The position numbers were made by a program, and so were the translations under genes. A DNA stretch of 64,000 bases from Natrarchaeobaculum aegyptiacum (GTDB taxonomy: Archaea; Halobacteriota; Halobacteria; Halobacteriales; Natrialbaceae). Position 1 is the first letter of the stretch; each line of letters opens with the position of its first letter. The notes under the pieces are model-generated. The model was not told where the DNA came from, did no database searches, and was given only the letters and a program-made list of their open reading frames with translations. The DNA lies in NCBI RefSeq assembly GCF_002156705.1, contig NZ_CP019893.1:248001-312000 (forward strand), given 5' to 3'. Below, piece after piece: positions 6,495 through 51,977 of the stretch.

Positions 6495-7885
6495 GAAACC
6501 CTTACGCAACCGCACTGGAGATCCAGCGGACGGCCTGGGAGAACGCCGCCGGCCTCGCGGGGAAAGCCGAGGTGGCCCCGGAGCGGACGGAGACGATCAA
6601 CAACGTCGAGGTCGGTCAGACTCCCAGCGACGTCGTCTACGAGGAGAACAAACTCCAACTTCTCCACTACGAGGCCCAGACCGACGAGCAACACGACGTT
6701 CCAATCCTGATCGTCTACGCACTCATCAACAAGCCCTACATCCTCGACCTCCAGCCGGACCGCTCGGTCGTCCGGACGCTGCTCGAGGCCGGTTTCGACG
6801 TCTACCTGATCGACTGGGGCGAGCCCTCGAAACTGGATCGGTCACTCTCGCTCGCCGACTACGTGAACCGCTACGTCGACAACTGCGTCGACGTCGTTCG
6901 CGACCGGTCGGATCAGGACGCCATCAACGTGCTCGGCTACTGTATGGGCGGGACGATGACCGCGATGTACACGGCGCTGTTCCCCGAGAAGGTTCGCAAC
7001 CTCGGCCTGATGGCCGCAGGTCTCTGCTTTGCGGGCGAGGGCGGCGTCCTCGAGCTGTGGGGTGGCGAGGACTACTACGATCCGGAGGCGGTCACCGACG
7101 CCTACGACAACGTTCCGGCGGAGTTTCTGGACGTCGGGTTCGCGCTCATGGACCCCGTGGCAAACAACGTCTCGAAGTACGCTCGTCTCTACGACAACGT
7201 CGAAGACGAGGACTTCGTCGAGAACTTCGCCCGGATGGAACGCTGGCTCTCGGAGGGAATCGACGTCGCAGGCGTCGCCTACGAGGAGTTCATCCGCGAC
7301 ATCTATCAGGAGAACAAGCTCTACCGGAACGAACTCCACCTCGACGGTGAGCACGTCGACCTCGAACGGATCGACGTCCCCGTTCTCCAGATCGTCGCCG
7401 AGTACGACCACCTCATCCCGCCGGGTGCCTCGAAACCGTTCAACGAAGTCGTCGGGAGCGACGATACCGAGATCCTCGAGTTCCCGACCGGCCACATCGG
7501 GATGTCGGTCTCCTCGCGCAGCCACGCCGAACTCTGGCCGGAGGTCTGTGACTGGTTCGAGGCGCGGTCGAACGGTGAGGCCGATCCAGCACCGACGGCA
7601 ACTGACCGCAAAGACGAGGACGCCGCCCTCGCCGAGGACGTCGCCGACGACGAGACGGGGCCGACCGACGCCGACCAGCCGACCGTCGAGACCGACGGCT
7701 CCGCGGCGGATCTGACCAGCCTGACCGGCATCGGTCGGACCTACGCGGCCGACCTACACGCCGCCGGAGTCGACTCGGTTGCGGAACTCGCGACCGCCGA
7801 CGCGGTCGAACTGGCCGACGAAACTGGCATCTCACCCAGCAGGGTCGAAGACTGGATCGAGCAGGCTCGAGACGAGTACCGGTGA
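6491..7885 (+). CDS. phaC: PHA synthase catalytic subunit PhaC with C-terminal helix-hairpin-helix domain
   Basis: PhaC polymerises (R)-3-hydroxyacyl-CoA into PHA. The alpha/beta-hydrolase core (about 60-355) has the lipase-like box GYCMGG with nucleophile Cys151, Asp306 in EYDHLIPP and His335 in TGHIGMS, completing the Cys-Asp-His triad. Beyond residue 355 a disordered acidic linker (about 360-405) leads to a helix-hairpin-helix module (about 408-464; [17 protein letters not shown], then [14 protein letters not shown]). Archaeal PhaC proteins are known to have longer C termini than bacterial ones. The HhH assignment here is my reading of the sequence. The gene is coupled to phaE by ATGA. Confidence 0.92.
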
Positions 7886-47761: not shown

Positions 47762-48991
47762 ATGAGAGACGCATACCTCGTCGGTGCGGGACAGTCGGCC
47801 TACGGGGCCTTTCCAGAGGAGAGCTACCGGTCGCTGTTCCAGACCGCGTTCGAAGAAGCGACCGAGAGCGTTCCGAACGGTCTCGAGGCGAGCGAGATCG
47901 ACGAGGCCGTCATCGGAACCCTCGGCGTCGGTGGCCGACAACTCGGCCTGTCCGGCCCGGCTGTAACCGAATACGTCGGTCTCGACGGCGTTCCCTGCAC
48001 CCGGGTCGAGAACGCCTGTGCGGCGAGTGGATTCGCGGTCAGACAGGCGGTCCAGGCCGTCAAGTCCGGGATGGCTGACGTCGTCCTCGCTGGCGGCTTC
48101 GAGATCATGACCGACATGAGCTCCGACGCCACGAAGTACTGGCTCGGCGTCTCCGGGGAGACCGAGTGGGAGCGCCTCTCGGGCACCACGTTCTCCGGCG
48201 TCTACGCCCAGATGGCCTCCGTCCACATGGAGAAGTACGGCACCACGCGCGAACAGCTCTCACGCGTCGCCGTGAAGAACCACGCCAACGGCGCGAAGAA
48301 CCCCCACGCCCAGCTCGGGTTCGAGTGCTCGCTCGAGGACGCCCAGTCCGCACCGGTCGTCGCAGATCCGCTCAACCTCTATCACTGCTGTCCGACCTCC
48401 GACGGCGCGGCGTGTGCCCTGATCGTCAGCGAGGACGTCGTCGACGAGTACACCGACGACCCGATTCGCGTCGCCGGCGTCGGTGCCGGTAGCGACACCG
48501 TCGGGCTCTTCGAGCGCGATTCCTACACGGGCGTGCCGGCGAGCCAGCGTGCCGGCGAGACGGCCTACGAGATGGCCGACCTCGAGCCCGGAGACCTCGA
48601 CTTCGCGGAGGTTCACGACTGTTTCGCCATCGCCGAACTGCTGGCGTACGAGGACCTCGGCTTCTGTGAGGAGGGCGAGGCCGGGCCGTTCATCGAGTCC
48701 GGGGCGACCGAACTCGGCGGCGAGTTGCCGGTCAACACCTCTGGTGGCCTCAAATCGAAGGGGCACCCAATCGGCGCGACCGGTGCCGGGCAGGTCGTCG
48801 AGGCGTACAAGCAGCTCTCCGGGAAGGCCGGCGACCGACAGGTCGACGACCCCGTCCGGGGGCTCACCCACAACGTCGGCGGGAGTGGTGGTGCTGCCGT
48901 CGTGCACATCTTCGAGCGCGAGGAGCACAGCTCCTCGAAATCCTCGAGCGCACGTGGTGCGCGAGAGCGCGAATCGGAGGTGAGCGCCTGA
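47762..48991 (+). CDS. Thiolase family protein (acetoacetyl-CoA/beta-ketothiolase, SCP-x type)
   Basis: The 409-aa thiolase has the nucleophilic Cys86 in ENACAASG (84-91), His in VHDCFAIAE, and the C-terminal GLKSKGHPIGATGAGQ. The archaeal SCP-x-like form lacks the third catalytic Cys of bacterial thiolases. The last 20 residues are a disordered Ser/Arg/Glu tail. It is coupled to the next gene (TGATGG, one-base overlap at 48991). Such thiolases work with a DUF35 protein: in haloarchaea, two-subunit ketothiolases supply PHA synthesis and related ones serve mevalonate synthesis. Which applies here is open. Confidence 0.85.
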   Translation: MRDAYLVGAGQSAYGAFPEESYRSLFQTAFEEATESVPNGLEASEIDEAVIGTLGVGGRQLGLSGPAVTEYVGLDGVPCTRVENACAASGFAVRQAVQAVKSGMADVVLAGGFEIMTDMSSDATKYWLGVSGETEWERLSGTTFSGVYAQMASVHMEKYGTTREQLSRVAVKNHANGAKNPHAQLGFECSLEDAQSAPVVADPLNLYHCCPTSDGAACALIVSEDVVDEYTDDPIRVAGVGAGSDTVGLFERDSYTGVPASQRAGETAYEMADLEPGDLDFAEVHDCFAIAELLAYEDLGFCEEGEAGPFIESGATELGGELPVNTSGGLKSKGHPIGATGAGQVVEAYKQLSGKAGDRQVDDPVRGLTHNVGGSGGAAVVHIFEREEHSSSKSSSARGARERESEVSA

Positions 48992-50415
48992 TGGTCGCGA
49001 TCACCGCCGCGGGCGCGTACGCTCCCCGATTCCGGATCACCGCGGAAGCGTTCACCGAAGCATGGGGCCAGTTCCAGGCCGCCGGCGTCTCCGAGAAGGC
49101 CGTCCCAGCTGCCGACGAGGATACCCTGACGATGGCCGCCGAGGCCGCCGCCCGCACGCTCGAGGCCGCCGACTGTAACCCCGCAGACGTCGACTGGCTC
49201 GGCATTGCCTCGACGCGACTGCCCGACGCCGAGACGGACCCGACAGTGCGCCTCGGTGCAATGGTCGGCCTCGCCGACGACGCCAGCCGACAGACGTTCA
49301 CCGGAAGCACTCGCGCCGGCACGCGCGCCCTCTGGGCAGGTGCCGACGCCGTCGACGCCGGCTCGCAGCTTGCCCTCGTTGTCGCGACCGACGCACCGAA
49401 AGGCGACCCGGACGATGCCATCGACCACGCCGCCGGCGCCGGTGCAGCGGCGTTCCTGCTCGAGGCCGACGGCCCAGCGTCGCTCGTCGACCGCGCCGAA
49501 TACGCCGCGCCGTATCCCGGAACCCGCTTCCGGACCACTGGTGAGGAGGCAACGCAGGGACTCGGCGTCACCCAGTACGACCGTCAGGCGTTCACCGAGA
49601 CGATCGGCGGTGCCGTCTCCGGCCTCGAGGTCGACCCGGACCCCGAAGCGGCGGCGATCCAGGCCCCGGATGGCAAACTCCCCTACCGTGCAGCGGGTGC
49701 GGCTGGCGTCGACACCGGCGCTATCCAGGCTGTGGCGACGGTCCACGACCTCGGCGACCTCGGGGCGGCGAGCGTCCCGGTCTCGCTCGTGACCGCACTC
49801 GCCGACGGCTACGAATCGATCCTCGCGGTCTCCCACGGGAGCGGGGCCGGTGCGGACGCCCTCGTCGTTTCCGGCGACGGCGACGTGCCCGTCGAGAGCG
49901 ACCTCGAGGGCGGCGACACGCTCAGCTACGCCGAGTACCTGCGCCAGCGCGGCGTCGTCACCACCGGCCCGCCCTCGGGAGGCGGCGCGTACGTCAGCGT
50001 CCCCTCGTGGCGACGGTCGATCCCCCAGCGCTACCGCCTCGAGGCGGGTCGCTGCCCCGAGTGTGGCTCGCTCGCGTTCCCGCCGGAGGGCGCCTGCGGC
50101 GACTGTACCGCACTCGTCGAGTACGAACCGGTCGAACTCGCCGGCGAGGGGACTATCGAGGCCGTCACCACCATCTCCCAGGGCGGTGCGCCACCGGAGT
50201 TCGCCGAGCAGCAAGGCCAGTCCGGCGACTACGCGGCCGTCGTGGTCGCACTCGAGACGGAGGACGGCACTGAGACGGTGAGCATCCCCGCGATGGGCAC
50301 CGACGCCGATCCCTCGGCCTTCACCGTCGGCGACCGGATCGAGACGACGATCCGCCGGATCTACACCCAGGAGGGCGTCACGCGCTACGGGTTCAAGGTC
50401 AGACCCGCCGAGTGA
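48991..50415 (+). CDS. HMG-CoA synthase-like domain fused to DUF35 zinc-ribbon/OB domain
   Basis: The 474-aa fusion has a thiolase-fold HMG-CoA synthase-like part (about 1-335) and a DUF35 part: rubredoxin-like knuckles CPECG (355-359) and CGDC (369-372), then an OB fold (about 378-470). In HMG-CoA synthases the nucleophile lies in a Cys-x-Ala-Gly-Thr motif. Here the aligned segment is GSTRAGTRAL (105-114), with Thr107 in the Cys position. The His of the H-x-P motif appears replaced by Gln224 (QAPDGK). Catalysis is therefore unlikely, and a scaffold or acyl-channelling partner for the coupled thiolase is the better reading. Confidence 0.8.
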   Translation: MVAITAAGAYAPRFRITAEAFTEAWGQFQAAGVSEKAVPAADEDTLTMAAEAAARTLEAADCNPADVDWLGIASTRLPDAETDPTVRLGAMVGLADDASRQTFTGSTRAGTRALWAGADAVDAGSQLALVVATDAPKGDPDDAIDHAAGAGAAAFLLEADGPASLVDRAEYAAPYPGTRFRTTGEEATQGLGVTQYDRQAFTETIGGAVSGLEVDPDPEAAAIQAPDGKLPYRAAGAAGVDTGAIQAVATVHDLGDLGAASVPVSLVTALADGYESILAVSHGSGAGADALVVSGDGDVPVESDLEGGDTLSYAEYLRQRGVVTTGPPSGGGAYVSVPSWRRSIPQRYRLEAGRCPECGSLAFPPEGACGDCTALVEYEPVELAGEGTIEAVTTISQGGAPPEFAEQQGQSGDYAAVVVALETEDGTETVSIPAMGTDADPSAFTVGDRIETTIRRIYTQEGVTRYGFKVRPAE

Positions 50416-50574: not shown

Positions 50575-50637
50575 CCGAAGTCTGGGCCTTGATCCGGCGA
50601 AGACGCCGCGTGGGGTGGCGTGGCCGGAAGAACATCA

Positions 50638-51633
50638 ATCACCCGTCAGCGCCTCGCTCGCTGGCGAGAACTCGAGGGGGGTCCCACGTCCCTCCTCCGT
50701 GGCCCGTTCGTAGAGCATGTACGCGGCAGCGACTGTCTCGATCCCAGTGCCCCCGCTGTCGAAGACGGTGATCTCGTCGTCGCGCGTGCGACCGGGCACG
50801 TCGCCCACGACGATTTCGCCGAGTTCGGCGTGGACGTCGTCTTCGGTGACGACGCCGGCCTCGAGCGCCCCGAGGAACTCCCCCGAGTCGAACGTCGCGC
50901 GCTCGCGGAGGTCCGGGACGTAGGTGCCGCGTTCGATGGTTCGCGCGTCGAGTTCACGGGCGTCAGTCGAGTACTGGCCCATCGCCGTCACGTGCGTTCC
51001 CGGCTCGAGGTCGTCGCCGTCGAACACCGGCTCGCTGGCGCGCGTGGCCGTGATCACGACGTCTGCTCCCGTTATGGCGGCCACACTGGAGCCGACCGCC
51101 TCGACGTCGGCCGCGAGCGCGTCCTCGAAGTCGGCCGCAAATTCCTCGCGATTCTCCGGTGTCGGTGAGTAGACGCGGACGGACTCGAGGTCCCGGACGG
51201 TGGCCGTCGCCCGGAGTTGACCGCGGGCCTGGGCGCCGCTGCCGATCACCGCGACGGTGTCGGCGTCCGCGCGTGCGAGTTCGTCGACGGCGACAGCGCC
51301 GGCAGCGCCGGTCTTGTGGGGGTTCATGCTCGCGCCGTCGAGGATGGCGAGCAGTCGACCGCTCTCGGCGTCGAACAGCGGCGTCACGAACCAGGCGTCG
51401 CTGTCCCCGAATCCGGCGGCGTACATGTACCCACCCATCGCACCGGTGTCGGGGAGGATTGCCGCGTAGCTCGTGAGCATTCCCGGCGGCTCCTCGCGGA
51501 AGAATTTCGACCGCGGCTGGGCAGGGGCACCCGAACCCCGCTGGCGATACCCGTCGCGGACGGCGTCGACGTAGTCGACAGGCGTTGCGAGGTCGGCGAC
51601 GTCGGCGCTCGAGAGTGACAGGACGTCGGTCAT
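50638..51633 (-). CDS. Ornithine cyclodeaminase / mu-crystallin family protein
   Basis: The protein of about 331 aa (stop complement at the 3' end near 50635) is a Rossmann-fold NAD(P)-dependent enzyme: GRLLAILDGASMNPHKTGAAGAVA (about 88-111, partly quoted) with the conserved substrate-binding Lys, dinucleotide loop VIGSGAQARGQL (about 129-140) and the ITGADVVITATRASEPVF segment. Family members include ornithine cyclodeaminase, alanine dehydrogenase (archaeal type) and ketimine reductases. Neighbours do not fix the substrate. Confidence 0.85.
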
Positions 51634-51738: not shown

Positions 51739-51954
51739 TTAGTCCGCGTTCATCGGTGGTCGAGCCGACTGGGTGTCGTCGCCGACCTCGGCCGGCGCGT
51801 TGACGAACATCGCGTGGCCGATGATCGCCATCGCGACGAGCGCACCGATGGGTACCGCTGCGGTCAACGAGATGCCGACCAGCGCGAGGGCAGCGGTTAC
51901 TCCCAGCAATGCGACGGGAATGAGGCCAAGAACGATGTCGTAGTACCCAGTCAT
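51739..51954 (-). CDS. Small two-helix membrane protein
   Basis: The 71-aa protein has two hydrophobic helices (about 7-28 and 32-51) and a hydrophilic tail containing PAEVGDDTQSARPPMNAD. A TATA-like CTTTTAAGTG on the minus strand (51981-51990) lies about 32 nt before the ATG. No function is recognised. Confidence 0.6.
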   Translation of the reverse strand: MTGYYDIVLGLIPVALLGVTAALALVGISLTAAVPIGALVAMAIIGHAMFVNAPAEVGDDTQSARPPMNAD

Positions 51955-51977
51955 AGTCAGTTTCTAGTACGTTTTTT

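Follow-up and report, generated by a model that had tools for sequence, protein, structure and literature searches.

A thiolase-coupled HMG-CoA-synthase-like/DUF35 fusion as a probable pseudoenzyme partner in haloarchaea

What can an HMG-CoA-synthase-like (HMGCS-like) protein that has lost the catalytic residues of its family contribute to the thiolase beside which it is encoded? The question is raised by two adjacent genes in a 64,000-nucleotide stretch of DNA (the window), which comprises bases 248001–312000 of a 3.93-Mb single-contig haloarchaeal genome. The first gene (47762..48991, + strand) encodes a thiolase of the archaeal/SCP2-like class (PRK06064). The second, directly downstream (48991..50415, +), encodes a protein of 474 amino acids in which profile and structure-sequence matches identify an HMGCS-like domain, a linker and a DUF35 domain (hereafter the fusion). 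The thiolase stop codon overlaps the fusion ATG in the sequence TGATG (48989–48993), and a Shine-Dalgarno-like motif, GGAGGTGA, can be read directly from the sequence ahead of the fusion start (48976..48983, +).

The N-terminal part of the fusion is an HMGCS-like thiolase-fold domain (residues 1–322; 48991..49956, +), which matches chain I of the methanogen complex 6ESQ (6ESQ_I; phmmer E-value 5e-22). Archaeal HMGCS models align to residues 1–321 (PRK04262, 2.6e-39; TIGR00748, 6.7e-27), at scores under their equivalog cut-offs (135 bits vs 244 for PRK04262; 94.6 vs 353 for TIGR00748). According to the family alignment, a conserved linker follows (residues 323–345, GGGAxVSxPxW; 49957..50025, +), the GGG of which is invariant. 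The zinc ribbon (50026..50118, +) contains Cys355, Cys358, Cys369 and Cys372; the zf-ChsH2 model (PF12172, a Cys4 zinc ribbon) matches residues 343–372 above its cut-off (26.8 bits vs 23.2), and all four cysteines are kept in 70 of 71 haloarchaeal fusions. The C-terminal OB-fold domain of DUF35 (50131..50406, +) carries the invariant motifs GGAPPEF and QExVxRYGxK. Its match to OB_ChsH2_C (PF01796) is under the Pfam cut-off (20.8 bits vs 27.1), and residues 337–472 align to the solved DUF35 protein 6ESQ_E (E-value 5e-11). An AlphaFold2 model of the fusion, calculated from an alignment of 41 sequences, reached a pLDDT of 79.7 and a pTM of 0.85. In a Foldseek search with this model, the best PDB match was 6ESQ_I (E-value 5.5e-21; TM-score 0.77 by target length), and chains of PhlA and MucABC were also among the best matches, from which the HMGCS-type fold is predicted to be retained.

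Alignment to 6ESQ_I confirmed that the nucleophilic cysteine (Cys114 of 6ESQ) is replaced by Thr107 (49309..49311, +) and the catalytic histidine (the His238 column of the HQP motif) by Gln224 (49660..49662, +). Both losses had been seen in a first-pass annotation of this DNA, which missed two further ones: the catalytic glutamate (Glu82) reads Thr75 (49213..49215, +), and Asn270 reads Asp256 (49756..49758, +), a residue that is aspartate in 71/71 haloarchaeal fusions and also in PhlA. A search of the fusion alignment for another Cys/Glu/His triad, which would have spoken against degeneracy, found none. Since the only cysteine outside the zinc site, Cys62, is not conserved, we conclude that no replacement triad exists. 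To judge from these residues, the HMGCS-like domain cannot run HMG-CoA-synthase chemistry.

The degenerate protein is not the local oddity that it was first taken for; it belongs to a family of which we collected 71 haloarchaeal fusions, 5 from other archaea of the same phylum and 80 from bacteria (Actinobacteria and Chloroflexi). A strong match to the fusion was present in 65 of 100 related genomes sampled. Cys and Glu are both gone from every fusion in the three sets (71/71, 5/5 and 80/80), and all three of Glu, Cys and His are present in 13/13 unfused archaeal HMGCS controls. Among the haloarchaeal fusions, the Cys column reads Thr (67/71) or Ala (4/71) and the Glu column Thr, Ser or Ala (71/71), a pattern that argues against chance loss. 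The His column is more variable (Gln in 56, His in 13, another residue in 2; thus 58/71 without His), and in the other archaeal and bacterial fusions the His is gone too. The residue at the Cys column differs by clade, being Thr or Ala in haloarchaea, Ala, Val, Gly or Pro in bacteria and Phe, Met or Ala in other archaea. Because the bacterial set was gathered with degenerate seeds, using search patterns from either end of the protein, away from the active site, an intact fusion may exist outside the sampled set.

In a phylogenetic tree, the haloarchaeal fusions form one clade (support 0.999), the bacterial fusions another (0.968) and four fusions from other archaea a third (1.0), and PhlA clusters with the active archaeal enzymes. 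The deep nodes are weak (support 0.42–0.87); a single origin of all fusions is therefore not supported, and one origin cannot be told from several. Three further observations concern the family. Some haloarchaeal HMGCS-like genes stand apart from DUF35 and thiolase (L073–L077 and L087); they too lack Cys, Glu and His, and form a second, unfused degenerate group. The HMGCS-like and DUF35 parts seem to be split over two frames in two genomes (L129 and L130), by gene fission or sequencing error. One haloarchaeal fusion clade (L056–L067) keeps the His; its genes lie near those for acyl-CoA dehydrogenase, aldehyde dehydrogenase and sometimes UbiD proteins, and a divergent PaaA/PaaC-like set is close by in several genomes.

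Comparison of the HMGCS-like part with close orthologues gave NG86 dN values of 0.145–0.20 and dS values of 0.62–0.78. As dN is far below dS, the fusion is constrained and not decaying, and a decaying pseudogene is ruled out by a dN/dS of about 0.2 together with long intact frames in about 60 genomes. No PHROG match was found, and a phage origin was rejected.

The neighbouring thiolase, by comparison, is intact. It scores 439 bits against NF004720 (cut-off 420), and its best match is the acetoacetyl-CoA thiolase of M. thermolithotrophicus (6ESQ_A, E-value 3.5e-85). The nucleophile Cys86 (codon 48017–48019), His285, His335 and Asn371 are invariant in 65/65 orthologues. A Ser/Arg-rich tail of the thiolase (about residues 389–409; 48926–48988, +) outruns the family models and is missing in many orthologues. 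Each of the 74 haloarchaeal fusion loci examined has the thiolase gene, and a thiolase lies at most 60 bp from 76 of the 80 bacterial fusions, usually downstream. The original description of a degenerate HMGCS-like part, fused to DUF35 and coupled to a thiolase, is thus borne out by the lost catalytic columns on one side and the invariant Cys86 on the other. Five more thiolases of the same class are encoded in the genome, each with a short separate neighbour only (four of these neighbours are DUF35-like, and one is an ORF of 119 aa without a recognised family) and no HMGCS-like domain, which marks this domain as an add-on special to the window pair.

On balance, we favour a reading in which the fusion, as a pseudoenzyme, makes up the structural half of a thiolase complex and the thiolase most likely cleaves 3-oxoacyl-CoA in beta-oxidation-type catabolism. 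A non-catalytic partner role for the HMGCS moiety, as first suggested, is the most likely one given the precedent of PhlA, and it is by analogy with PhlACB and the methanogen complex that we take the fusion to be a dead half-site and a bridge. The DUF35 part would hold the thiolase and the HMGCS-like fold together, as in those two assemblies. The vacated HMGCS-like pocket would line a shared acyl-CoA cavity as a dead second half-site, and the covalent chemistry would be left to the thiolase alone, via Cys86 with His285 and His335. The most likely reaction would be thiolytic cleavage of a 3-oxoacyl-CoA in a beta-oxidation-type pathway, and in many haloarchaea the substrates may be aromatic-derived acyl-CoAs, such as intermediates of the phenylacetate pathway. 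Complex formation, the shared cavity, the direction of the reaction and the substrate are all inferred, and the assignment of substrate and reaction holds least firmly for the copy in the window itself.

Gene neighbourhoods in relatives point to catabolism. An acyl-CoA catabolic gene lies within 6 kb at 53 of 74 haloarchaeal loci, and 3-hydroxyacyl-CoA dehydrogenase and enoyl-CoA hydratase are both present at 35 of 74, both being counts without a background rate. Haloferax mediterranei, Hfx. alexandrinus and Haloarcula carry the pair among phenylacetate genes (PaaK and a thioesterase; PaaA–E in Haloarcula), with the genes for 3-hydroxyacyl-CoA dehydrogenase and enoyl-CoA hydratase coming after it. 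In Halostagnicola and Haladaptatus it occurs with acyl-CoA dehydrogenase and aldehyde dehydrogenase or with paa-like genes. Several paa clusters also carry a canonical thiolase, so the pair need not be the phenylacetate thiolase. The phenylacetyl-CoA epoxidase genes track the fusion across 81 genomes that are at least 90% complete: PaaA/PaaC was found in 51 of 57 genomes with the fusion vs 3 of 24 without (p = 3e-11, a value that ignores relatedness). Within genera of mixed state, a hand count gave five contrasts that agree (g1, g5, g8, g29 and g33), none that disagree and three ties.

Phenylacetate can be no more than a lead where the window's own copy is concerned, because this copy has a conserved non-catabolic neighbourhood and because five genomes among the closest relatives carry the fusion but no PaaA/PaaC. 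There is no catabolic neighbour at the locus. Downstream of the fusion lie an ornithine-cyclodeaminase-like gene (50635–51633, − strand) and a 71-aa ORF (51741–51956, −), whose synteny is shared by many of the closest relatives (14 and 17 loci, respectively). Elsewhere in the genome, a divergent PaaA/PaaC-like oxygenase (epoxidase) cluster is found with ligase-like and hydratase-like genes (G000:C1:1457000-1459500; L243); no gene within roughly 8 kb of this set at 1.457 Mb could be recognised as a thiolase.

An opposite direction of the reaction has to be weighed against these data. The pair could be a PhlACB-like, anabolic complex that makes C–C bonds, either by C-acyl transfer or by forming acetoacetyl-CoA for PHA or another product. 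The closest solved folds to that of the fusion include PhlA and MucABC subunits, PhlA has the same loss of Cys and Glu, a Gln at the His column and a Gly-Asp motif, and a PHA synthase gene, phaC, lies in the same window (6572–7567, +; TIGR01836, 409 bits). However, the neighbours of the pair in relatives are 3-hydroxyacyl-CoA dehydrogenase, enoyl-CoA hydratase, acyl-CoA dehydrogenase and paa genes, and no polyketide or PHA genes were seen beside the pair at the loci examined. The PhaA genes of H. mediterranei were not found at the start of pHME505. The nearest PHA gene in the window is the 41-kb distant phaC, and the presence of PhaC does not go along with that of the fusion, either inside the family of the window's genome (p = 0.68) or among genomes that have the close clade alone (p = 0.56), with p = 0.03 overall; like the PaaA/PaaC value, these p-values ignore relatedness. 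An anabolic role is therefore unlikely in our view. Its specific form in the first-pass annotation, a shunt of acetoacetyl-CoA to PhaB and PHA, is not supported, given the 41-kb distance and the lack of co-occurrence within the family, whereas the epoxidase genes do track the fusion.

Another explanation holds that the HMGCS-like domain has kept or gained a different catalytic activity (acyl transfer, hydrolysis or decarboxylation) through Asp256, Thr107 or Arg181/Arg233. Indeed, Thr107 (94%), Asp256 (100%), Tyr232, Arg233, Arg181 and Arg198 are strongly conserved in the haloarchaeal fusions, beyond the strict need of a passive scaffold. Pocket shape or CoA contacts would explain this conservation equally well, though, and both the clade-dependent Cys column and the absence of a common Asp256 from the bacterial fusions speak against such a role, so that we regard this explanation as improbable. 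Still more doubtful is a role as an assembly or stability factor only, in which the fusion would serve folding of the thiolase and take no share in substrate binding. According to one proposal, PhlA and PhlB are required chiefly so that the complex folds properly (PMC6392133); against this, the five other thiolases of the class manage without an HMGCS-like domain, so that folding in this class does not generally call for the extra 320 residues. Finally, a genuine mevalonate-pathway HMG-CoA synthase, suggested by the fold and a weak similarity to HMGCS models, can be dismissed with near certainty: all three catalytic residues are gone, the scores are far below the equivalog cut-offs, and the separate intact gene that was to be looked for is present (G000:C1:3361661-3362989; full score, 895 bits to the haloarchaeal HMGCS model NF041302), so the mevalonate pathway does not need the fusion.

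With the pseudoenzyme reading preferred, a broader proposal can be put forward tentatively. HMGCS-like/DUF35 fusions might be a large, unrecognised class of pseudoenzymes that enable thiolases to handle bulky substrates of catabolism. Together with their thiolase, those of haloarchaea might make up a non-canonical thiolase for aromatic catabolism of the phenylacetate (hybrid) type and fill part of the reported pathway gaps. A 2026 survey found that haloarchaeal phenylacetate pathways look incomplete (PMC13186573), which a non-canonical thiolase could partly explain. In this respect the pair is a candidate, open to testing, for a thiolase of aromatic catabolism in haloarchaea. In archaea and bacteria alike, the family also shows a partner from a known channelling complex that has become catalytically dead, a natural series that is useful for asking what a pseudoenzyme gives a thiolase.

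Among known systems, the haloarchaeal alpha/beta ketothiolases are two-part enzymes of a thiolase and a DUF35-type partner. The DUF35 complexes BbsAB, ChsH2/Ltp2 and Shy/Sal likewise combine a catalytic thiolase-fold protein with a zinc-ribbon/OB partner, and BbsAB and the steroid aldolases have catabolic roles (PMC12329534, PMC10818641). None of these two-part enzymes has an HMGCS-like domain, whereas the window pair adds a fused one of 320 residues.

The thiolase/DUF35/HMGCS complex of M. thermolithotrophicus (6ESQ/6ET9) has the same three folds and adjacent genes, and both proteins of the window match it best in sequence and in fold. Its HMGCS is active (Cys114, Glu82) and apart from DUF35, whereas that of the window is dead and fused. 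This channelling complex has two active sites and one CoA site, with CoA sitting at the interface of all three proteins (PMC6392133); in the fusion, the second site lacks the catalytic residues.

A close parallel for the residue loss is PhlACB (PpATase/CsATase, a Friedel-Crafts acylase; PDB 5M3K, 5MG5 and 9SKH), which like the window pair combines a Cys/Glu-less HMGCS-like subunit, DUF35 and a catalytic thiolase-like subunit. PhlA lacks Cys and Glu and only PhlC residues act in catalysis, PhlB (DUF35) joins the parts, one cavity is lined by all three subunits, and activity needs co-expression of all three (PMC6392133). The window fusion has a Gly-Asp motif and a Gln in the His column, as does PhlA, and the window thiolase has the Cys and His of a PhlACB-type thiolase-like subunit (Cys86, His285 and His335). 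Yet PhlA, PhlB and PhlC are three separate proteins, whereas the HMGCS-like and DUF35 parts of the window form one ORF; and PhlACB, an (A2C2)2B4 complex with C-acyltransferase activity, serves antibiotic biosynthesis, whereas the neighbours of the fusion in relatives are beta-oxidation genes. MucABC (9VBO), related to PhlACB, is likened to the fusion by its fold match only.

The same order of fused domains, without Cys, Glu and His, occurs in actinobacterial HMGCS-like/DUF35 fusions beside a PRK06157 thiolase (for example, WP_005245652 of Rhodococcus opacus PD630). These fusions are only 24–31% identical, have the reverse gene order (fusion first) and fall into a separate clade of the tree. 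A literature search that covered few subscription journals brought up no description of a family of such fusions. A Cys/Glu-less HMGCS-like subunit with DUF35 and a thiolase is already known in the form of PhlA; what is new here is its fused, widespread and probably catabolic form.
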